IMG/VR virus record: IMGVR_UViG_3300036785_000740
Coordinates: 1-27,792 of that record
From: a virus
Reading direction: 5' to 3' (one strand)
Length of the DNA stretch: 27,792 nucleotides
Positions within the stretch are counted from its first letter, which is position 1. Every line of letters starts with the position of its first letter. The translations under genes were made by a program, and so were the position numbers. Below are positions 1,556 to 24,873 of this stretch, one piece after another. The notes beneath the pieces were generated by a model. It was not told the origin of the DNA. It searched no databases and worked only from the letters and a program-made list of their open reading frames with translations.

Positions 1556-1686
1556 TGGCCGAAAAGAAGACGCCGTTCGGGGGCAAGAAGGCCGCACCGT
1601 TCGGTAGCAAGCAGGGGGCCAAGGAGGACACCAGGGCCAAGAAGGCCACCACACCCAAGAAGATCCCCAGTCAGAAGAGGAAGTAG
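1555..1686 (+). CDS. Tiny Lys-rich protein (43 residues)
   Basis: A 43-residue protein, almost a quarter lysine, starting MAEKKTPFGGKKAAPFGS and ending SQKRK. It contains the internal near-repeat PFGGKK / PFGSKQ. The ATG overlaps the preceding stop (TGATG), AGAGGGAAG sits just upstream, and its TAG shares one base with the GTG of recA, so translation is probably coupled on both sides. The composition resembles small DNA- or RNA-binding tails. No family is recognised, and the function is unknown. Confidence 0.7.
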   Translation: MAEKKTPFGGKKAAPFGSKQGAKEDTRAKKATTPKKIPSQKRK

Positions 1687-2783
1687 TGCCATCGACCAAG
1701 GTCGACACCATCACCACGGTGATGGCCGAGATCAACAAGGAATTGGGGCCGGAGACGGTGATCTGGGGGAGCCAGATCCGGTACTCGGACCTGCCCCGAA
1801 TCTCCTCGGGCAGCTACGCCCTGGACGTGGCCCTGGGGGGTGGCTGGCAGACCAACGCCTGGCACGAGCTATACGGCGACGAGTCGAGCGGCAAGACCAC
1901 CGTCATCCTGAAGACCATCGCCACCCAGCAGGCCCTGAACCCCGACTACACCACCTTCTGGGTCGCCGCCGAGGAGTTCGTGCCTCAGTGGGCCACAGAC
2001 CTGGGCTGCGACACCGACCGGATCCTGGTCATGCAGACCAACATCCTAGAGGAGGCCACCAACGCCGCCATCCGGGTACTGGAGACCAGGACGGTAGACG
2101 CCCTGGTCATCGACAGCCTCCCAGCCCTCTCACCGGTAACCGAGTCGGAGGGCACGATGGACGATCAGCAGATCGCCCTGGTGGCCCGGTTGCTGCCCAA
2201 GTTCTTCCGCAAGGCGTACACCGCCATGAAGCGCTCCCTGGTGGAGGACGACCGGACGGTGACCTGCTTCATGGTCAACCAGTGGCGGGAGCGCCCGAAC
2301 ATGCCCTTCGGTGACCCCCGCATAACCCCAGGTGGGAGGGCCAAGAACTACTGGTTCACATCCAGGGTCGAGTTGAAAAGAGACAGTTGGCTCACTGAGG
2401 GTGACCGGAAGAACGAGCGGAAGGTCGGTCTCACCATCAAGGCCCTGACCAAGAAGAACAAGAGCTTCCCGCCCGAGCGGGTGGCCGTGTTCGACTTCTA
2501 CTTCGACCACAACGAGATCGGGATCTCACCGGGGGACTACGACCGGGCGAAGGAGTTGGTCACGCTGGCCCTGCTCTTGGACCTGATCAAGGTCAAGAGC
2601 AGCTACTACAGCCTGGGGGACGAGACCTGGCACGGCCGAACCGCCCTGGAAGAGCAGATCAGATGGGACTTGACACTCCAGGAGAGGCTGCGAGATGCTA
2701 TACGAGATCAAGTCACGAAGGGTAAGCGTCCTGAGGAGTCCCGCCCCTCACCACGGCACCTGGAGAGGGTGAAGACGCCGTGA
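1686..2783 (+). CDS. recA: RecA-type recombinase
   Basis: A 365-residue ATP-dependent strand-exchange protein that would coat ssDNA and drive homologous recombination of phage DNA. Walker A is YGDESSGKTT (residues ~63-72), Walker B is VDALVIDS (~138-144), and the AAEEF stretch near residue 96 matches the RecA catalytic-glutamate region. MVNQWRERPNMPFGDP followed by TPGGRAKNY matches the region after loop L2 in bacterial RecA. The length is close to that of cellular RecA (about 350). The GTG start is preceded by AGAGGAAG and overlaps the upstream stop by one base. A GTGA overlap links it to the resolvase-like gene downstream. The C-terminal ~25 residues are basic. UvsX would be an alternative name, but the motifs favour RecA. 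Confidence 0.93.
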   Translation: MPSTKVDTITTVMAEINKELGPETVIWGSQIRYSDLPRISSGSYALDVALGGGWQTNAWHELYGDESSGKTTVILKTIATQQALNPDYTTFWVAAEEFVPQWATDLGCDTDRILVMQTNILEEATNAAIRVLETRTVDALVIDSLPALSPVTESEGTMDDQQIALVARLLPKFFRKAYTAMKRSLVEDDRTVTCFMVNQWRERPNMPFGDPRITPGGRAKNYWFTSRVELKRDSWLTEGDRKNERKVGLTIKALTKKNKSFPPERVAVFDFYFDHNEIGISPGDYDRAKELVTLALLLDLIKVKSSYYSLGDETWHGRTALEEQIRWDLTLQERLRDAIRDQVTKGKRPEESRPSPRHLERVKTP

Positions 2784-5724: not shown

Positions 5725-5885
5725 CCGAGTCCCTGCAAGAGGCCATCAACGACGTGATGGGGGCCAACGACCAGGTTCAGCACCTGGTCAGCAACGGACA
5801 CTTCATGAACGGCACCACGACCCTGCTCAAGGCACTCAGCGACCTCGACTGGGCCGTTCGTCAGTTGAGCAGGGAGGCGTCATGA
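5721..5885 (+). CDS. Small helical protein (54 residues)
   Basis: A 54-residue, all-helical protein (TESLQEAINDVMGANDQVQ, then LLKALSDLDWAVRQLS). The GTG start overlaps the previous stop as GTGA, and the stop overlaps the next ATG. It has no cysteines, unlike its neighbours. The amphipathic helices could form a bundle or a binding partner. The function is unknown. Confidence 0.75.
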   Translation: MTESLQEAINDVMGANDQVQHLVSNGHFMNGTTTLLKALSDLDWAVRQLSREAS

Positions 5886-6274
5886 CCACCGATGACACCG
5901 ACATGACCAACGAGGAGTTCGACGCCGCCTTGGCCCACTCTCAGCCAGGCTTCGTACTTCGGGCCGGTCAGAACATCGGAACCCCATTCAATCAGAACAT
6001 CGGAACCCCCTTCATCACCCAGGCCGACCGGGAGCGAGACACCTACAAACCAGATCTCGTGAACCACCCGCCCCACTACGGCCACCATCCCTCCGGGGTC
6101 GAGTGCATCACCATCACCGAGTGGTACAACTTCAACGTCGGCAACGCCATCAAGTACCTGTGGCGGGCCGGTCAGAAGGAAGGCGCCGATCCCGTGGAGG
6201 ATCTGAGGAAGGCAGCGTGGTACGTCAACCGAGAGATCGAGAGGATAGAAAATGCCAACCAGCGAGGAACTTGA
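5882..6274 (+). CDS. DUF3310 family protein
   Basis: A 130-residue protein whose C-terminal ~75 residues match DUF3310, a small phage domain sometimes annotated as nucleotide-kinase-like. Key parts are VNHPPHYGHHPSGVECITI, FNVGNAIKYLWRAGQKEG and LRKAAWYVNREIERI. Biochemical function is not established. The N-terminal ~50 residues are acidic and include an exact repeat, QNIGTPF twice, from a ~24-base tandem duplication (5970-6012). The ATG overlaps the previous stop (ATGA), and the last codons overlap the Acb2-like gene. Confidence 0.9.
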   Translation: MTTDDTDMTNEEFDAALAHSQPGFVLRAGQNIGTPFNQNIGTPFITQADRERDTYKPDLVNHPPHYGHHPSGVECITITEWYNFNVGNAIKYLWRAGQKEGADPVEDLRKAAWYVNREIERIENANQRGT

Positions 6275-6473
6275 ACGCCGATTTACCTACTATGCACCAG
6301 ACGAGGCCACCCGTGCCCTCCATGAGGAGTGGCGCACCCACGAACGCTGGTACGCTGATCACATCAACGAGCTACCAGGCGGCGACACCCGGGAGAAGGC
6401 TCTAGCGTTCACTGCACTGGAGGAATGCACGTTTTGGGTTCACGCCCACATCGCCCGCAACCTCCATGAGTGA
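6252..6473 (+). CDS. Acb2-like anti-CBASS cyclic-nucleotide sponge (probable)
   Basis: A 73-residue protein that closely fits the Acb2 / Acb2-Tad1 hook-domain pattern I know: an N-terminal RRFTYYAPDE segment, a helix, then LPGGDTREKALAFTALEE and CTFWVHAHIARN. In the family the second half reads LPxGRExSLAxTxLEEAxxWANAxIAR. Acb2 proteins assemble into small oligomers that bind cyclic di- and trinucleotides, so CBASS effectors are not activated. The start is ATG with GAGAGGATAG upstream, inside the end of the DUF3310 gene. The length matches the family (about 70-95 residues). Conserved Asn-Ala in the WANA motif is His-Ala here. The function is inferred from the family and untested. Confidence 0.8.
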   Translation: MPTSEELERRFTYYAPDEATRALHEEWRTHERWYADHINELPGGDTREKALAFTALEECTFWVHAHIARNLHE

Positions 6474-6693
6474 ACTTGACAGGTACATAGTGGAGAAGGC
6501 TCTCAAAGCCCTGGATGACCTGCTGACTGCCCATGAACCCCACACCTGGGAGCAGATAGGCCGATGCGTGTACTGCGAGTGTGGGGAGCGGCTGTACCAG
6601 GGCTACCTGCCCGCCCACCGTAGGACTGCCAAGAAGGCCCCGCCCGAGCCGAAGGCCACCACCGAGATGCGGAAACAGTGGGGCAAGACGTGA
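6466..6693 (+). CDS. Small Cys/His protein of unknown function
   Basis: A 75-residue protein overlapping the Acb2-like gene by 8 bases. A helical N-terminus (DRYIVEKALKALDDLLTAH) precedes CVYCECGERLYQGYLPAH, a likely zinc knuckle with three cysteines and a histidine, and a basic tail (RRTAKKAPPEPK). Its stop overlaps the RuvC-like start. Functional prediction is not possible beyond probable metal binding. Confidence 0.75.
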   Translation: MSELDRYIVEKALKALDDLLTAHEPHTWEQIGRCVYCECGERLYQGYLPAHRRTAKKAPPEPKATTEMRKQWGKT

Positions 6694-7268
6694 CGGACAT
6701 CTACGTGGGCATCGATCCCGGCACCAAGAACTGTGCCCTGGTGGCGTGGTCCCCCACCAGGGGCCTGATCACCACCTGGAAGCCCAAGGGGGCGATGCCA
6801 ACCGGCGTCATGCGGCTCAGGCGGCTCATGGTGGGCATCAACGACGAGCTAAACAAGCTGGACGAGATCAAGATGATCGCCATGGAGGCGTACTCCATGG
6901 CCGAGAAGTACGGCCAGCACAACTCCGGGGAGGTAGGGGCGGCCATCAAGCTCACCATCCTGGCCCACTTCGCCAGCGATGACCGACGAGCCTTCCCGGT
7001 CCTGGTGGCGCCCCAACAACTCAAGAAGTTCGCCTCAGGCAACGGCAACACCAAGAAGGAGATGCTGCCCAAGGAAATATTCAAGCGCTGGGGCGTGGAC
7101 TTCAACGACATGAATATTGCTGAGGCGTACGTGCTGGCCCGTATCGCCCATGCGGTGAGCGCCAGGCCCGAGATGACCCAGTTCCAGCAGAGCGTGGTGG
7201 ACGCCCTGGACGGCCGTACCGAGTGGATTCCCATCCCCCAGCGGCGGTTGGTCAGGGTGGGGAAGTAG
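6690..7268 (+). CDS. RuvC-like Holliday junction resolvase
   Basis: A 192-residue RNase H-fold nuclease that would cleave four-way DNA junctions made during replication and recombination. From the GTG at 6690 (GTGA overlap with the previous stop) the first strand is VGIDPGTKNCALVAW with the catalytic D9. The second acid is in MIAMEAYSM (E66). The C-terminal site reads DFNDMNIAEAYVLARIAH. Where RuvC has D-x-x-D, this protein has N-x-x-E (N142, E145), with D140 nearby, so the metal site is altered. GTG 6678 is possible but lacks the coupling. It is the second resolvase-like gene in this operon. Confidence 0.85.
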   Translation: MTDIYVGIDPGTKNCALVAWSPTRGLITTWKPKGAMPTGVMRLRRLMVGINDELNKLDEIKMIAMEAYSMAEKYGQHNSGEVGAAIKLTILAHFASDDRRAFPVLVAPQQLKKFASGNGNTKKEMLPKEIFKRWGVDFNDMNIAEAYVLARIAHAVSARPEMTQFQQSVVDALDGRTEWIPIPQRRLVRVGK

Positions 7269-10324: not shown

Positions 10325-11059
10325 ATGAGCCTGACAGACAACTACTTCCCATTCGACACCGGTCCCGGGGCTGGGGCCACGCCCGACCGCTGGCGCCGCA
10401 TGGCCCGCAACTTCTACGGATCCGGTGTCGTGCCCGGCTACTTGAACCAGTGCATCCCCAGTCTGGCCGCTGGCGTGGTGACCATCGGTACCGGGGCGAT
10501 GTGGATCGACGGGTTCTACGGCGAGAACACCGTAGCCAAGACGGTGGGTGTCAGTGGCAACGGAATGGTCGTCGGCCGTATGGACCCGACCGGTCGGACC
10601 ATCCAGTACCTGTTCGTCCCCAACCAGACGGTGCCGAGCCAGGCAGGCGTCACCGGCATCTACGAGATCCCGATCATGCAGGTGGCAGGCGGCACGACTG
10701 GCACCGACATCCGGCAGTTCGCCCCTCCGAATACCAACCTACAAATCCAGGTTTCCAGTCTGTTGGCTGGAGCGCTCCCTGTGAATCCTTCGATGCTCTG
10801 GAAGTTAGGTGCAGGACAGCAGATAACCAATACCGGTGGTATCTTCAACCTCACCTTCCCCGTTGCCTTCCCGCACTGCCTCGCCTACTTCCATATTGAG
10901 CCGACCTTCGGCGGTGGGATCCGGCCGTGGATCCTGGAGTGGGGTGGAGCGGGCACCTATGGTCTGACGGGTGTAGGTGTGACCCTCGTCAACACCACCA
11001 ATGGCGCAGCCGTCGCCAGTACCGCCATTGGCTACGAGTGGTGGGCATTGGGCGCATGA
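10325..11059 (+). CDS. Minor tail/baseplate protein, second paralogue
   Basis: A 244-residue protein with the same N-terminal domain as its neighbour (YFPFDTGPGAGATPDRW, then MWIDGFYGEN) but a different C-terminal part, which ends in a beta-rich segment with IGYEWWALGA. Shared head and divergent tail are typical of duplicated receptor-contact proteins. AGGAAGCTGAG precedes the ATG. It is ATGA-coupled to the gp25-like baseplate gene, which places it in the baseplate assembly operon. Confidence 0.8.
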   Translation: MSLTDNYFPFDTGPGAGATPDRWRRMARNFYGSGVVPGYLNQCIPSLAAGVVTIGTGAMWIDGFYGENTVAKTVGVSGNGMVVGRMDPTGRTIQYLFVPNQTVPSQAGVTGIYEIPIMQVAGGTTGTDIRQFAPPNTNLQIQVSSLLAGALPVNPSMLWKLGAGQQITNTGGIFNLTFPVAFPHCLAYFHIEPTFGGGIRPWILEWGGAGTYGLTGVGVTLVNTTNGAAVASTAIGYEWWALGA

Positions 11060-11487
11060 GCTTCATCGTCCCCGCCAACTTCCGCCAGTTCCCCATGAAC
11101 TGGGAGATGGCGCAGCCGTTCAACATCGACGCCACGGGTGCGGTCGCCTTCGACACTGACCCAGTGCGGTGGGCGACGAACCACATCCTGGCCCTCCTGC
11201 TCACCAACCCGGGCGAGAGAGTCATGCGTCCCGGCTATGGTGTGGGCATCTTCACCATGGTCTGGGAGAACGACAACCCGGTGGTGGAAGCCAACATAGT
11301 CACCACCATCAACTTGGGACTCGCCGTCTACGAGCCCAGCATCAAGGTGATCGACGTCCAGTTCACCCAGGTGCCCATGTATGCCGGGATCATGAACCTC
11401 ATCATCCACTTCACGGTGGGCAACGCGCCAAGCGTGTACACCACCGCCATCAACCTGAATGGTTCTGGAATAGAGATTCAAGCATGA
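11056..11487 (+). CDS. Baseplate wedge protein, gp25-like
   Basis: A 143-residue protein of the T4 gp25 / P2 gpW family, the baseplate wedge component that has lysozyme ancestry and starts sheath assembly. Family marks are RWATNHILALLLTNPGERVM and RPGYGVGIFTM (the conserved NPGERxxRPxxG stretch), followed by beta strands with VPMYAGIMNLIIHF. ATG overlaps the preceding stop (ATGA), so the longer open frame upstream (from 10927) is not the gene. Its ATGA overlap with the J-like gene is the order expected in contractile-tail phages. Confidence 0.92.
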   Translation: MSFIVPANFRQFPMNWEMAQPFNIDATGAVAFDTDPVRWATNHILALLLTNPGERVMRPGYGVGIFTMVWENDNPVVEANIVTTINLGLAVYEPSIKVIDVQFTQVPMYAGIMNLIIHFTVGNAPSVYTTAINLNGSGIEIQA

Positions 11488-13403
11488 GCATCGCACCGGT
11501 CTCCCTGGGCACAATCGCTGACGTCATACCCACCAACGTCGTCGTTCCGCCCATCGACTACACGAGTCGAGACTATTCCTCGCTCATCAACGACATGCTC
11601 ATGCTGATCCCGAGCTATCTGCCAGAGTGGACCGACCGCTCCCCTGGTGACTTCGGGATCGTGCTGCTGGAACTGTTCGCCTACGTGGGCGACATCCTCA
11701 ACTACTACTCCGACCGGATCGCCAACGAGGCGTTCATCGCCACCGCTCAGCAGCGCCAGTCGGTGCTCAACCTGGCGGCGCTACTGGACTACACGCCCTA
11801 TGGCAACGTGGCGGCGACGACCAATCTCCTCTTCACTGTCGGCCAACCGTGCCCGCAGCCCGTTGAGATCCCACCAGGCACCGAGGTCTCCACCACCCTG
11901 GCGGGTAACGACACCGTGATCTTTCAGACCAGCCAGGACCTGTGGATTTACGGGGACGGCATCTACAGCACCTTGAACGCCACCGGCACCGGGCTGGCAT
12001 CACAGCAGTACGTGCTCCAGGATCCCACCCAGCTATGGCCCACCTACATCTATGCCGGGGGAGCCAACTCCATCGTGGTCGTGGGCGGCACCCAGTGGAC
12101 CCTGGCTCCCGGCAACAGCTTCGTCGGTCAGGCCGCGACCGCCACCATGTACACGGTGATCAATGGCAACACCGTGCTGTTCGGCGGCGGCACCACAGCC
12201 AGCCCCGGTGCCATCCCTGGTAGCGGGACGGCCATCCTCATCTACTACTCGACCACGGCACTGACGCCGGGGACACCCGTCACCGCTGCACCCACCCCTG
12301 CCTACCAGTACAGCGGCCAAGTCTCTGCCATCCAGGGAGTCTCCAGCCTGGGCGAAGGCATCGGCATCTCAGACGGCACCCAGAACCAGCAGTACACGCT
12401 GTTCAACACGCCTGTGGTGGACGGCAGTGTGGACATCTACGTCGATGAAGGCGGCGGTCCGACGAAGTGGATCTACCACCCCCGTCTGGTCGACGCCTTC
12501 GCCTCGGAAGCGGCCTACAGCCTGTCAGTGGACGCCAACAGTGTGGTCACCGTGAACTTCGGGGACAACATCGCTGGGCGTATTCCGGCTCCGGGCGGCT
12601 TCATCACGGCGAGTTATCTCATCGGTGGCGGGGCCATCGGGAACGTATCGGTTGGCTCACTCACTCAGTTGGGGGCAGGAACTTCGGGGACGCTGACTTC
12701 AGCGAGTGTCACCAGCGTGACGAACACGGTACCGGCGACGGGCGGTGCCGATGCCGAGTCCATCGATCACATCCGCATCCACGCTCCGATGTCGATCACG
12801 GCCATCAACCGGGCCGTGACCCTGGACGACTACGCCGCCCTGGTCCTGAACAACGCCAGCATCGCCAAGGCCTCCACGCTCTCGACGGCCTTCAACGCCG
12901 TCAACATCTACATCCACCCCACCGGGGATTTCATCCCCAACGCCACCGCTCTGGGCAATAGGGTGGCGGCGCTGATCCCTTCGATCACCAACTCCAACTA
13001 CACCGGCTACATGGACGACAAGAAGATGGTGGGCGTCTCGATCAACATCATCCCACCTCAGTACAACAGGAACGGGGTGCTCCAGACCGGGTACGTACCG
13101 GTAGACGTCGCGGCCACGATCCAAGTCCTACCCCAGTACCACCAGTCCACCATCCAGGCTGCGGCCCAAGCAGCGATTCAGAACCTGCTGCTGTTCTCAG
13201 TGGTGGACTTCGGCTGGCGGGTCACACTGTCCAGCATCTATCACGCACTCATGGAGGTGGAAGGAGTGGACTGGGTCAACGTCACGGTGCTCTGTCGCGA
13301 TGAGGTGACTCCACAGACCTGCGCCGACATCCAGTGTGCGGTCTACGAGATCCCTCAGGCGAACGCCGTCACCGTCAATGCGTCTGGTGGTGTTATTTAC
13401 TAA
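11484..13403 (+). CDS. Baseplate protein J-like
   Basis: A 639-residue baseplate J-like protein, a wedge component at the baseplate periphery. The N-terminus has PPIDYTSRDYSSLINDML and RSPGDFGIVLLELFAYVGD, both typical of the family. The diagnostic TGGADAESIDHIRIHAP, then NRAVTLDDYAALVLN, occurs near residues 418-455. The C-terminal region (DFGWRVTLSSIYHALMEVEG) matches the usual ending. A Ser/Gly-rich beta insertion lies in the middle (~180-300). Length is above that of P2 gpJ (about 300), as in many larger phages. ATG 11484 by ATGA overlap. Confidence 0.93.
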   Translation: MSIAPVSLGTIADVIPTNVVVPPIDYTSRDYSSLINDMLMLIPSYLPEWTDRSPGDFGIVLLELFAYVGDILNYYSDRIANEAFIATAQQRQSVLNLAALLDYTPYGNVAATTNLLFTVGQPCPQPVEIPPGTEVSTTLAGNDTVIFQTSQDLWIYGDGIYSTLNATGTGLASQQYVLQDPTQLWPTYIYAGGANSIVVVGGTQWTLAPGNSFVGQAATATMYTVINGNTVLFGGGTTASPGAIPGSGTAILIYYSTTALTPGTPVTAAPTPAYQYSGQVSAIQGVSSLGEGIGISDGTQNQQYTLFNTPVVDGSVDIYVDEGGGPTKWIYHPRLVDAFASEAAYSLSVDANSVVTVNFGDNIAGRIPAPGGFITASYLIGGGAIGNVSVGSLTQLGAGTSGTLTSASVTSVTNTVPATGGADAESIDHIRIHAPMSITAINRAVTLDDYAALVLNNASIAKASTLSTAFNAVNIYIHPTGDFIPNATALGNRVAALIPSITNSNYTGYMDDKKMVGVSINIIPPQYNRNGVLQTGYVPVDVAATIQVLPQYHQSTIQAAAQAAIQNLLLFSVVDFGWRVTLSSIYHALMEVEGVDWVNVTVLCRDEVTPQTCADIQCAVYEIPQANAVTVNASGGVIY

Positions 13404-15081: not shown

Positions 15082-18000
15082 ACGGCGGTCTATGGCATCG
15101 ATTTTTATGGCGTCGGCAAGTTCGGGCGTGATCCAGCCCTGGTGCGCCCCGACTTCTCGGTGGCGCCGTTTGAGTCGATGCCCATCAGCTACTCCAGCCT
15201 GCACCTGACCTGGCACAACCCGGTGTCAGCGGACTGCACCCAGTTACGACTGGTCCGCAACGGTAATAACCTGCCTCAGGATGAGAACGATGGCGCTCAG
15301 GTCTTCGTGGAGAGCAACTACGCCACCACCAACACCAACGACGCCATCCCGACCGGCTTCCTGACCTCGGTCACCGACATCGGTCTGGCTGGTGGCTTCA
15401 TCTACTACACCATGTTCGGCTGGTCCCAGGCCAACAGCCTGTGGATCCGCTGCACCGATCTCATCGCCCTGGTGCCGTTCAACTGGGGTTACGGCTGGCG
15501 GCTCTACAACCTGCTCCCGATGGCCTACCGGGACGCCGACATCGTGCTGGTAGACCCCTACAACCCATGGCCGGTGGAGAGTCCCAACCCACCGCTCCAG
15601 CGCTACCTCCAGCTAATCGGCTTCCAGGTGGACTTCATCCGCACCGAGCTTGAGTCACTGATGAGTATCAGCGACGCCCAGAACTGCTCCGGTGCACTGC
15701 TCCCGCTCATGGCCCAACAACTGGGGCTGCCTCACGAGCCTGAAGTGGGCATGCAGCAGGAGCGACAACTGGTGCAGAGCGCCGTCCATCTCTACAAGCA
15801 GAAGGGGTCACCCCGAGGCATCACCGAGACAGTCTCGATCCTGACCAGCTACCCGACCACCCAACTTGTCCACCACGGCTACAACTGCCTCCTGTGCCTG
15901 GATGACGGCATCATGTATGACGCCATCGGCACCTGGCAGGTCTGGCCTCCCCGGATCCCCAACGCCTACACCGGGGTGCTGGGGCCAATTTTCCCGGCCC
16001 TGGGCGGGCAGGCAACGGGCATCGCTCTCACCTGGATCCCCAACCTGATGACGGTCGGCAGCATGACCAACCCGCTGACGACGTACCCGGGCGGCTTACC
16101 CCTCAGTCTCCAGCCCGTCTACAACAACTCCGGCATGCGAATCCAGGCCACCGGGGCCGGGGATTACAGCGTGACCACGGGCGGTATCCCGATCACCGAC
16201 TTCATGTCCCAGGTCGATGGTCAGGGCCACATCACCTGGCGGATCCAGGTCTGGTCCTCATTGGCTCGCACCGTCTGGCTCTCGGTCTGGGGCGACGTCG
16301 GCAGTGGCGCCAGGGTGAACGTGCTGCCCGAGCAGAGCTTCACCGAGACCGCAGGCCAGTGGACCCAGATGACGATCACGGGCACGATCAACCCGTACCC
16401 GAACTCGGTGCCCGGTGCGGCCGCTCCCACCGGGCCTGCGTCGTACTACACGCTCTACCCCCAGATCCGCATCGCCGGAGCGGGCGCCAACGAGGCCCAC
16501 TACGTCACCCTGTGCGGGCTGTGGCCCTGCACCCCGGCCCAGATCGGCGTCGACACCCCGGCCTACGACTACCCCCGTGACGTCAAGATCCTGCTCCAGC
16601 CCCAGTCGTCCAACCTGCTGTCCAACACGGTCACCACCTTCGCCCGGCCCAACCCCAACCCTCCTCCGACCAACGTGGGCATCGGCTTCGACGGCCTGAG
16701 CAACGCCCAGGATCCCAAGGCACCGATCAGTCATGAACTGCTCACTCCCCAACAGTCCTCGCTTGAGGACGGCACGACCACTGGGTGGGTGAACTACACC
16801 AACGCCACCCTTACCAACTCAACCAATCAGGCGTTCGTCGGTACCCATTCACTAGCGCTGACCGCCCTCACTGCTGCTGACATGGACGTGTTGAACTCGC
16901 CATTCGGCACGGCAGGTATCGCTATCACGCCGGGTATGTCATACACGTTTACGGTGAACTTCCGGGCGACAACAACCAGTCGACTCTGCTACGCCATCAT
17001 CCAATGGCTGGACGGCTCCGGCACCCTGCTTACCAATAACAACGGGACTGCTGTTTCCGACACCACCACCGGATGGACCACAATCACCAACGTCGCTGGC
17101 CCCGCCCCGGCTAACGCTCGCTACGCACAGCTAGCGCCCTACGTTTCCGGGCCCGCTGCCGGTGAAATCCACTACATCGACGGCATGTCGTTTCGGCTGG
17201 TGGCGCCTCCACTCTCCTGCAACATGTCGATCCGGTACGCCAGCATCGAGGATCCCCCGGCCCTCACCCCGGTGAATGGCACCGCTGCCCTCCAGATCAA
17301 CGCCACTAATCCCAATGCCACCATCTGGTGGGGCAAGACAGTCGTATGGTCACCACCGCCTCCCACCCCCTACGGCTGGTTCGCCGGGAGCAGGCCCACT
17401 CCTCCCCCGGCGTACACCGATGGACACACCAACGACTGGTATTTCGGGGCCTCGACTGGCACCAGCCCGAGGAACTGGACCGACCCGACCTACGGCTGGT
17501 TCATGACCAACCAGAGCTTCTTCGGTGTGGGTAGCTCCTTCGTCAACGGCGTGTGGTTCGCCCTCACGGCGCAGCCGCCCAACTACGGCAATCTGAGCGC
17601 CTACAACGTGGCGGCCGGTCAGCCCTTCAACTTCAGCGTCTACGCCCAGTACGTCACCGTCCAGGATCCCTCCAACGCCCAGATGCTCCTGGGTCTGCGC
17701 TGGTACTACCCGGACGGCACCTGGGTTGAAAATACCTACCCGGTCATGCTGACTGACACCTACCAGCGCTACAGCATGCCGAATCCCTCCGACCCCACCA
17801 GCTACTACCTGGGCGAGCCACCTGCCCAGGCCAATCCCCCCACCGGCATCCTGCCCACCCTGGTGTACCCCTTCGTGCGGTTCCCGGCGGCTCAGAACGC
17901 CCAGTTCCTGGTGAACTCGGCCATGCTGTCGCCCGACCTGGCTCTGTCGCCCTACATGGACGCCACGTCTTTTTCCTCAACCAGCGGTGATTTTCTCCCC

Positions 18001-18162
18001 GATCCGGTCACCAACGCCAGCTACATTTACCGGCGCCGCACCCCCAGGGTCGCCCGGCTCAACGAGCAGTTGTACCGTTGGCTGCCCATGGGCAGCACGT
18101 ACACCATCACCTACGCCTCATCAGCCGTCACCCCCCCGCTCGACCCCACCCTGTGGCCGTAG
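15082..18162 (+). CDS. Tail protein I-like adhesin with carbohydrate-binding-like modules (probable ACG start)
   Basis: About 1026 residues. The frame is protein-like from ACG 15082 (AVYGIDFYGVGKFGRD) onward, but no ATG, GTG or TTG occurs in frame before GTG 15142. The N-terminal domain is a tail-tip fold (ISYSSLHLTWHNPVSADC). A tail protein I-like helical region follows near 173-271 (LQRYLQLIGFQVDFIRTELE; KQKGSPRGITETVSIL), the part that joins the baseplate to the fibres. Beta-sandwich modules resembling CBM4/9 or discoidin-type lectins lie near 372-480, 557-708 and 808-961. The middle one has the pattern SSLEDGTTTGW and IIQWLDGSGTLL. This is likely the receptor-contact protein that recognises cell-envelope glycans; the glycan target is unknown. 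Confidence 0.85.
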   Translation, partial: TAVYGIDFYGVGKFGRDPALVRPDFSVAPFESMPISYSSLHLTWHNPVSADCTQLRLVRNGNNLPQDENDGAQVFVESNYATTNTNDAIPTGFLTSVTDIGLAGGFIYYTMFGWSQANSLWIRCTDLIALVPFNWGYGWRLYNLLPMAYRDADIVLVDPYNPWPVESPNPPLQRYLQLIGFQVDFIRTELESLMSISDAQNCSGALLPLMAQQLGLPHEPEVGMQQERQLVQSAVHLYKQKGSPRGITETVSILTSYPTTQLVHHGYNCLLCLDDGIMYDAIGTWQVWPPRIPNAYTGVLGPIFPALGGQATGIALTWIPNLMTVGSMTNPLTTYPGGLPLSLQPVYNNSGMRIQATGAGDYSVTTGGIPITDFMSQVDGQGHITWRIQVWSSLARTVWLSVWGDVGSGARVNVLPEQSFTETAGQWTQMTITGTINPYPNSVPGAAAPTGPASYYTLYPQIRIAGAGANEAHYVTLCGLWPCTPAQIGVDTPAYDYPRDVKILLQPQSSNLLSNTVTTFARPNPNPPPTNVGIGFDGLSNAQDPKAPISHELLTPQQSSLEDGTTTGWVNYTNATLTNSTNQAFVGTHSLALTALTAADMDVLNSPFGTAGIAITPGMSYTFTVNFRATTTSRLCYAIIQWLDGSGTLLTNNNGTAVSDTTTGWTTITNVAGPAPANARYAQLAPYVSGPAAGEIHYIDGMSFRLVAPPLSCNMSIRYASIEDPPALTPVNGTAALQINATNPNATIWWGKTVVWSPPPPTPYGWFAGSRPTPPPAYTDGHTNDWYFGASTGTSPRNWTDPTYGWFMTNQSFFGVGSSFVNGVWFALTAQPPNYGNLSAYNVAAGQPFNFSVYAQYVTVQDPSNAQMLLGLRWYYPDGTWVENTYPVMLTDTYQRYSMPNPSDPTSYYLGEPPAQANPPTGILPTLVYPFVRFPAAQNAQFLVNSAMLSPDLALSPYMDATSFSSTSGDFLPDPVTNASYIYRRRTPRVARLNEQLYRWLPMGSTYTITYASSAVTPPLDPTLWP

Positions 18163-24180: not shown

Positions 24181-24873
24181 ATGAAGCGGCTCACTTTACT
24201 TGCCGCTGGCGCTCTGGGCGCCAGCGTCTTCTTTGCCACAGGTTGCGGAGGACGATCCACAGCTTCTGCACACCCTGTGGAAAACCTTGTGGAAAACCCA
24301 CCTGCCTCTACCAGCGTGAGCACCGTGGTCCCGGCCAGTGGTTCGCCCCCAAGGGCTGTCCCGATCCTGACGGCGCAGACCCCGACCCTCCCACAGGTGA
24401 CCGTTGTGGCAGGCGATACCTTATGGGGGATCGGGATCCGCACCTCTCGGACGTGGCAAGCCCTGGCGAGCTTCAACCACATACCGAATCCCAATCTCAT
24501 CTATGTGGGTCAGGTGGTCACGATCCCCGATGGATCCGCCGTACCTGCCCCCGTCGTCGTACCCGCTCCTGCACTCCGCTACACCCCTCCTGTGTCCCAC
24601 TCGGCTCCTGTGGTGACTTATACACCACCTCCGAAGCCTGCGGTACGCAGTGCCGGGGCGCCTGGCAGCTTCCAGGCGTGTGTGGCGATGAGGGAGTCAG
24701 GAAACGGGTCGGGGTCCAGCAACATCTACGGCTTCCTCCAAGGCACATGGAGCAGCCTGGGCCTTTCCGGCTCGCCCGGATCCGCCTCCAGGGGGCAGCA
24801 GGACGCTGCCTTCGCCATGCTGTACGCCAAGGACGGGAAGGCGCCTTGGGGTCCCTACGATGGATGCAGCTAG
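24181..24873 (+). CDS. Lipoprotein with LysM and Rpf/transglycosylase-like domain
   Basis: A 230-residue secreted lipoprotein that would cut or remodel peptidoglycan. The signal region has a basic start (MKR), a hydrophobic core, and a lipobox ending FATGC (C22 is the lipidation site). LysM at ~72-116: VTVVAGDTLWGIG, then LIYVGQVVTIP. A Pro-rich linker follows. The last ~65 residues form a resuscitation-promoting-factor/transglycosylase-like domain: ACVAMRESGNGSGSSNIYGF, then GTWSSLG and APWGPYDGC. E172 in the RESGNG box is the expected catalytic acid, and C167 with C229 may form a disulfide. It could serve infection, lysis or surface modification of the host (superinfection effects). Monocistronic: divergent from the upstream genes and closed by a terminator. 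Confidence 0.9.
   Translation: MKRLTLLAAGALGASVFFATGCGGRSTASAHPVENLVENPPASTSVSTVVPASGSPPRAVPILTAQTPTLPQVTVVAGDTLWGIGIRTSRTWQALASFNHIPNPNLIYVGQVVTIPDGSAVPAPVVVPAPALRYTPPVSHSAPVVTYTPPPKPAVRSAGAPGSFQACVAMRESGNGSGSSNIYGFLQGTWSSLGLSGSPGSASRGQQDAAFAMLYAKDGKAPWGPYDGCS

Follow-up and report, generated by a model that had tools for sequence, protein, structure and literature searches.

A PF24729 hairpin gene in a 27,792-base virus record and its possible role as a cyclic-nucleotide sponge

A 73-residue protein is encoded between a DUF3310 gene and a Cys/His mini-protein gene in a virus record of 27,792 bases, the whole of which is the window analyzed here. A sequence-only reading had taken this protein for an Acb2-like anti-CBASS protein of an apparently uncharacterized actinophage lineage. 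The locus raises the question of whether the protein is an Acb2 at all, which of the residues that serve the known Acb2s it has kept, and what kind of signal molecule it would bind.

The hairpin gene and its operon

The 73 residues quoted in the sequence-only reading are the exact product of the ORF given in Table 1. The protein matches PF24729 (Acb2_Tad1_hairpin) with an E value of 4.9e-14 and 52.7 bits along profile positions 2-58 of 58, the curated cut-off of the family being 27 bits, and it matches phrog_1454 (function unknown) with an E value of 3.7e-14. At E <= 0.001, the hairpin gene is the single PF24729 match in the record, and the control genomes gave none (0/14). The dN/dS values (Nei-Gojobori) of the gene are 0.133, 0.032, and 0.058 against L009, L010, and L011, contigs that reappear below as L001, L002, and L003; since the synonymous sites are near saturation against L010 (pS 0.745) and L011 (pS 0.741), only the value for L009 is a fair one and the other two are rough. 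The direction is clear, and the gene is under purifying selection in a real reading frame. A spurious ORF, or a resemblance by chance, is hardly tenable: the ORF is short and one other forward frame crosses the same stretch with a single stop, but chance would have to account for the PF24729 score, the purifying selection, and relatives in 318 phage records and at 215 viral-contig loci. We rejected it on the family match and the selection. NCBIfam returned nothing for the hairpin protein, PADLOC returned nothing for it or for three neighbors, and a PDB search with the single sequence gave one irrelevant match (E 1.1), so that a profile search was needed to find relatives there.

Table 1. Positions of the hairpin gene, its neighbors, and the codons discussed in the text (window coordinates).
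Feature	Position	Strand	Basis or remark
DUF3310 gene	5882..6274	+	PF11753, E 1.6e-11; 23-base overlap with the hairpin gene
Putative ribosome-binding site AGAGG	6240..6244	+	Read from the sequence; 7 bases ahead of the ATG
Acb2/Tad1-hairpin gene	6252..6473	+	ATG start, 73 aa; PF24729, phrog_1454, predicted helices, dN/dS
Tyr13-Tyr14 codons	6288..6293	+	Region aligned with the cyclic-dinucleotide-binding Tyr (T4 Acb2 Y8, PaP2 Y11)
Arg28 codon	6333..6335	+	Arg in 66/66; aligned with PaP2 Acb2 Lys26 (Lys in 27/27)
Arg47 codon	6390..6392	+	Arg in 66/66; aligned with PaP2 Acb2 Arg67 (Arg in 23/27)
Thr54 codon	6411..6413	+	Thr in 66/66; aligned with T4 Acb2 Thr68
WVHA codons, residues 62-65	6435..6446	+	His64 in place of the subfamily Asn
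75-aa Cys/His mini-protein gene	6466..6693	+	8-base overlap with the hairpin gene
RuvC-like Holliday junction resolvase gene	6678..7268	+	phrog_159, E 6.7e-17; 16-base overlap with the mini-protein gene

The short overlaps that link the DUF3310, hairpin, and mini-protein genes, with the RuvC-like gene following, are as first described (23, 8, and 16 bases). The mini-protein shows no significant family match (best E 0.19 in Pfam and 0.13 in PHROGs), and the RuvC-like protein is without a Pfam match. In a related 75.5-kb contig, L001, the DUF3310, hairpin, mini-protein, and RuvC genes follow one another as they do in the window, with RecA upstream. Among the window ORFs matching L001, conservation is highest in the hairpin protein (86% identity), followed by DUF3310 over its C-terminal part (79%), RecA (72%), the mini-protein (66%), and RuvC (63%); in the whole L001 record, RecA is 73% and the baseplate J protein 58% identical. 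In L002 and L003, the hairpin proteins are 82% and 77% identical to that of the window and are flanked by other genes. When 20 window ORFs were used as queries (one of which, 11058-11487, was out of frame and uninformative), the hairpin ORF alone matched in the L002 and L003 stretches compared. The whole L002 and L003 records, which may be fragments, gave no match to the window RecA or baseplate protein; both carry DUF3310, but elsewhere.

This gene order bears on one alternative, in which the protein would have the hairpin fold but serve the phage as a regulator or as an accessory of replication, the binding of nucleotide signals having been lost or never present. The overlaps that embed the gene between the DUF3310 and RuvC-like genes, the neighbors kept in L001, and the absence of the canonical Arg85 discussed below would all suit such a role. 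We nevertheless hold it to be very unlikely, as the homologs in L002 and L003 have other neighbors and the settings in phage records are varied, including terminase genes, a ClpP-like protease, lysin A, and others. The hairpin gene behaves as a movable accessory rather than as a component tied to a replication complex.

Predicted fold and place within the superfamily

The 215 relatives in viral contigs were confirmed from one motif pattern, and the 80 loci listed among them contain 66 distinct proteins of an actinophage/Bacillota-phage subfamily. Our alignment of this subfamily, A2, contains the window protein and 65 relatives (66 rows); L076 was omitted as near-identical to L073, and the starts of L010, L011, and L027 were shifted to nearer start codons. 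All 66 members match PF24729. The AlphaFold2 model built with the 66 aligned sequences (pLDDT 92.6) contains one short helix (residues 4-10) and two long helices (18-39 and 47-70), the latter forming the long antiparallel pair that is the trait of PF24729. The same protomer layout is described for Acb2 in two reviews (PMC12043709, PMC10419184). The want of a significant HMM match, or a different fold, had been named as what would refute the first interpretation; given the family match and the confident model of one short and two long helices, neither applies.

Structure searches were made with this model. In BFVD, which collects structure predictions for viral proteins, the name Acb2/Tad1 hairpin is given to 13 of the 17 best rows and to none of the other four; the top row is an uncharacterized Mycobacterium phage protein (TM 0.84, rmsd 1.4), and none of the best 50 of 83 rows reaches E <= 0.001. 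Foldseek gave 10 matches against the PDB (best E 6.3), with no Acb2 entry among them. A second PDB fold comparison (VIA) aligned 38 chains, 31 of them at Z >= 2. The Tad1 entries have Z values of 4.3-5.5, the best hairpin match being at Z 5.5 with an rmsd of 2.6 over 48 aligned residues, and they are mixed with unrelated helical proteins, including an unrelated kinase domain in the top row (Z 6.0); the rows listed contain no Acb2 entry. As a control, a model of PaP2 Acb2 recovered 8h2x (Z 10.7), 7uq2 (Z 9.9), and 8h2j in the PDB fold search, and the fold library therefore contains Acb2.

Against the PDB, the A2 profile finds the six chains of 9ptq, "Acb2 homolog 43", with an E value of 3.2e-11; six Tad1 chain sequences have E values of 5.6e-4 to 2.2e-3, and T4 Vs.4 comes in at just 0.24. 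A profile of canonical Acb2 (A4) finds PaP2 p26 (8h2j, 8ixz) and T4 Vs.4 (7uq2), with 9ptq absent at E <= 1; A4 comprises 27 of the 94 distinct canonical sequences taken from 69 of 80 loci (67 distinct) and 29 of 35 loci (27 distinct). Compared with a mixed PaP2/T4 profile, A2 aligns along residues 41-70, the third helix only, with a probability of 52%. With the two canonical groups taken separately, the profile-profile probability of the subfamily is 2.4% for PaP2 and 64.6% for T4; the PaP2 and T4 groups find each other at 97.9%, along residues 7-92 of 93. Full-length profile similarity to the canonical Acb2s of PaP2 and T4 was not found, and BLASTP with the window protein gave no alignment with PaP2 Acb2 and an E value of 0.1 for T4 Vs.4. 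The scores for 9ptq, Tad1, and T4, together with the third-helix-only alignment, therefore assign the protein to the superfamily, as a member of a subfamily set apart from the canonical Acb2s. By its sequence, the window protein is best described as a PF24729 hairpin protein and not as a canonical Acb2. The Acb2-like identity first proposed thus holds as far as membership of PF24729 goes, but this family takes in the Tad1 hairpin as well as Acb2, and the subfamily is remote from the Acb2s known in complex with cGAMP.

Among proteins with a solved structure, 9ptq is the best match and appears by sequence to be the closest relative. Like the window protein, it has Phe11, REK at 47-49, T54, LEE, and a basic residue (Lys) at position 28; it differs in having Phe62 for Trp and in lacking both WANA and WVHA, and it has His14, as do 64 of the 66 subfamily members. 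We found no paper on 9ptq in the open literature, and tblastn with a 58-residue piece of it gave nothing among the phage records at E 1e-5. The canonical Acb2s, PaP2 p26 and T4 Vs.4, match the same PF24729 at 66.1 and 71.4 bits, and they share with the window protein the long helical hairpin, the basic residue at 28/26, and the Thr at 54/74. In contrast, the window protein has a shorter hairpin loop and Ala65 for the invariant Arg85, and is without the GY...N..K signature and the C-terminal Pro.

Tad1 (7uav, 8kbb, and others) has in common with the window protein the helix-3 motif RExxxAxTxxEExxxW, through which the six Tad1 chains score better than T4 Vs.4. The protein may thus be a hairpin-only relative of Tad1, which would sequester a Thoeris-type signal (cyclic ADP-ribose) or only cyclic trinucleotides, a CBASS dinucleotide not being its main target. 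The Tad1 hairpins among the structural matches agree with this possibility, but their Z values are not above those of unrelated helical proteins, and the window protein does not have the N-terminal beta-sheet of Tad1; on balance, we think it unlikely. According to a review (PMC12043709), Tad1 has this N-terminal beta-sheet, and its conserved loops help to build the ADP-ribose pocket. The Tad1 chains listed have 123-138 residues with the beta-sheet, whereas the window protein has 73 and its model contains helices only. A full Tad1 was rejected on the length (73 residues against about 125) and on the model, which is without strands.

Putative pocket residues and the WVHA variant

Seven residues, R28, R47, T54, L56, E57, E58, and W62, are invariant in all 66 rows of A2, in which the window protein is one row. 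Two of them align with K26 and R67 of the PaP2-type Acb2, residues that, along with Y11, have roles there. Thr54 aligns with PaP2 T74 (Thr in 22/27) as well as with T4 Thr68, and the mutation T68M is described as reducing binding by T4 Acb2 (PMC12657230). The register at the N-terminal tyrosines is ambiguous: MAFFT (A3) pairs Tyr14 with T4 Tyr8, and the ungapped Pfam register pairs Tyr13 with it. The window protein has Tyr at both positions, and position 14 is His in 64/66 subfamily members. The mutation Y8A disrupts dinucleotide binding by T4 Acb2, as stated in another report (PMC12657218).

The canonical Acb2s (27 sequences) have the invariant set I8, G10, Y11, I19, N23, K26, M81, R85, and P90. 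This set is not present as a whole in the window protein, which keeps a Tyr and a basic residue and replaces R85 with Ala65, P90 with Asn70, N23 with Glu25, and M81 with Phe61. The residue F82 of T4 Acb2, which stacks on the ligand according to the same report (PMC12657218), aligns with A68 of the window protein, and 23 of the 27 canonical members have Ala there too.

We consider it probable, with moderate confidence, that the gene product is a cyclic-nucleotide sponge of the Acb2/Tad1 hairpin superfamily acting against CBASS-type signaling. In its favor are the PF24729 match shared by all 66 members, the AlphaFold2 model, the names of the best BFVD rows, the profile matches to 9ptq and Tad1, the purifying selection, and the invariant R28, R47, and T54, which align with residues that matter in the studied Acb2s. 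The replacement of Arg85 by Ala65, the profile alignment confined to the third helix, the BLASTP result, and the lack of a BFVD match at E <= 0.001 count against it, as does the lack of an Acb2 entry among the 10 Foldseek matches, although the PDB fold search was uninformative for this model. The monomer, predicted as a two-helix hairpin with one short helix ahead of it, would assemble into a hexamer by analogy with the solved members and would presumably be produced alongside the replication genes. Signal molecules would lie between the subunits, held by residues 13-14, Arg28, Arg47, and Thr54. Cyclic di- or trinucleotides, presumably from a CBASS-type enzyme, would be bound without cleavage, and the effector of host death would thereby stay off.

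The WVHA box had been presented as a difference from the WANA box of Acb2. The variant is real, but WANA is a motif of the subfamily and not of Acb2 at large. Position 64 in A2 is Asn in 59/66 rows and His in 7/66; the window protein and those of L009, L010, and L011 (4/66) are the sole members in which His64 is joined by His66 and by two inserted residues ahead of R47, and WVHA is a clade variant of the subfamily WANA. The 27 canonical sequences contain neither WANA nor WVHA; position 64 is occupied in them by Val, Ile, Cys, or Thr and therefore varies across the superfamily. An effect of WVHA on ligand choice, as first suggested, is speculation from sequence. With Ala65 in place of the canonical Arg, and with the His64, His66, and insertion of the clade, the protein may sequester a different signal. 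On that account, the subfamily pocket would be differently built, as in a hairpin-only form standing between Acb2 and Tad1, and the signal may be a trinucleotide or one of actinobacterial defense systems; we regard this as a rather doubtful possibility.

Host, occurrence, and meaning for the family

The phage RecA of the window (1686-2783, +; PF00154, E 2.6e-44) has its best phage-record relatives in 112-116 kb Streptomyces phages (39-41% identity), and an actinobacterial host is likely on this indirect evidence. The protein at 24181-24873 (+) matches LysM (PF01476, E 2.1e-11) and, below threshold, a transglycosylase-like family (PF06737, 22.6 bits against 27); it gives a hint of the same host. 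Baseplate J-like (PF04865) and Tail_P2_I (PF09684) matches lie at 11169-13403 and 15142-18162 (+), and suggest a contractile-tailed phage.

At E <= 1, a relative of the hairpin protein is present in 318 phage records out of 50,697, with RefSeq copies counted as separate records, namely 201 of Mycobacterium, 57 of Paenibacillus, 38 of Gordonia, and others. The 20 loci in genome contigs belong, by our reading of their titles, to Actinomycetota (13), Bacillota (5), and others (2). In the Mycobacterium phage StellaBean, tblastn found gp101, named "cyclic nucleotide sequestering protein", with 43.5% identity along 92% of the protein (E 6e-3); it has other gene neighbors and WANA for WVHA. Putative anti-CBASS/CBASS-antagonist genes, assigned by similarity, are described in reports on the cluster E mycobacteriophages Xandras and BigBubba (PMC11953737) and on the Microbacterium phage Statler (PMC13348362); we liken these genes to the window gene by the published descriptions alone. 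Marshawn gp5 (L006 936-1178) and Ibantik gp60 (L007 2998-3216) are "hypothetical" in their records, yet they are hairpin relatives, and similar records could be re-annotated.

As for the claim of an anti-defense gene in an uncharacterized actinophage lineage, the RecA relatives favor the actinophage part, but Acb2-like genes of actinophages have already been reported. Since a large group in phages of soil bacteria has been named before, the window gene adds an example to that group more than it amounts to a discovery. The role of the hairpin gene in mycobacteriophage infection is called unknown in one of these reports (PMC11953737), and we found no biochemistry of the subfamily in the open literature, outside which most subscription papers lie. 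In the literature that we found, binding data cover the Acb2 sponges of T4 and Pseudomonas phages, and beside these stands a large subfamily in phages of actinobacteria and Bacillota, mostly labeled hypothetical among the records listed. The identity of its ligand would reveal the nucleotide signals that actinobacterial hosts employ in phage defense, and would show whether the hairpin serves generally as a scaffold with a pocket retuned from clade to clade.
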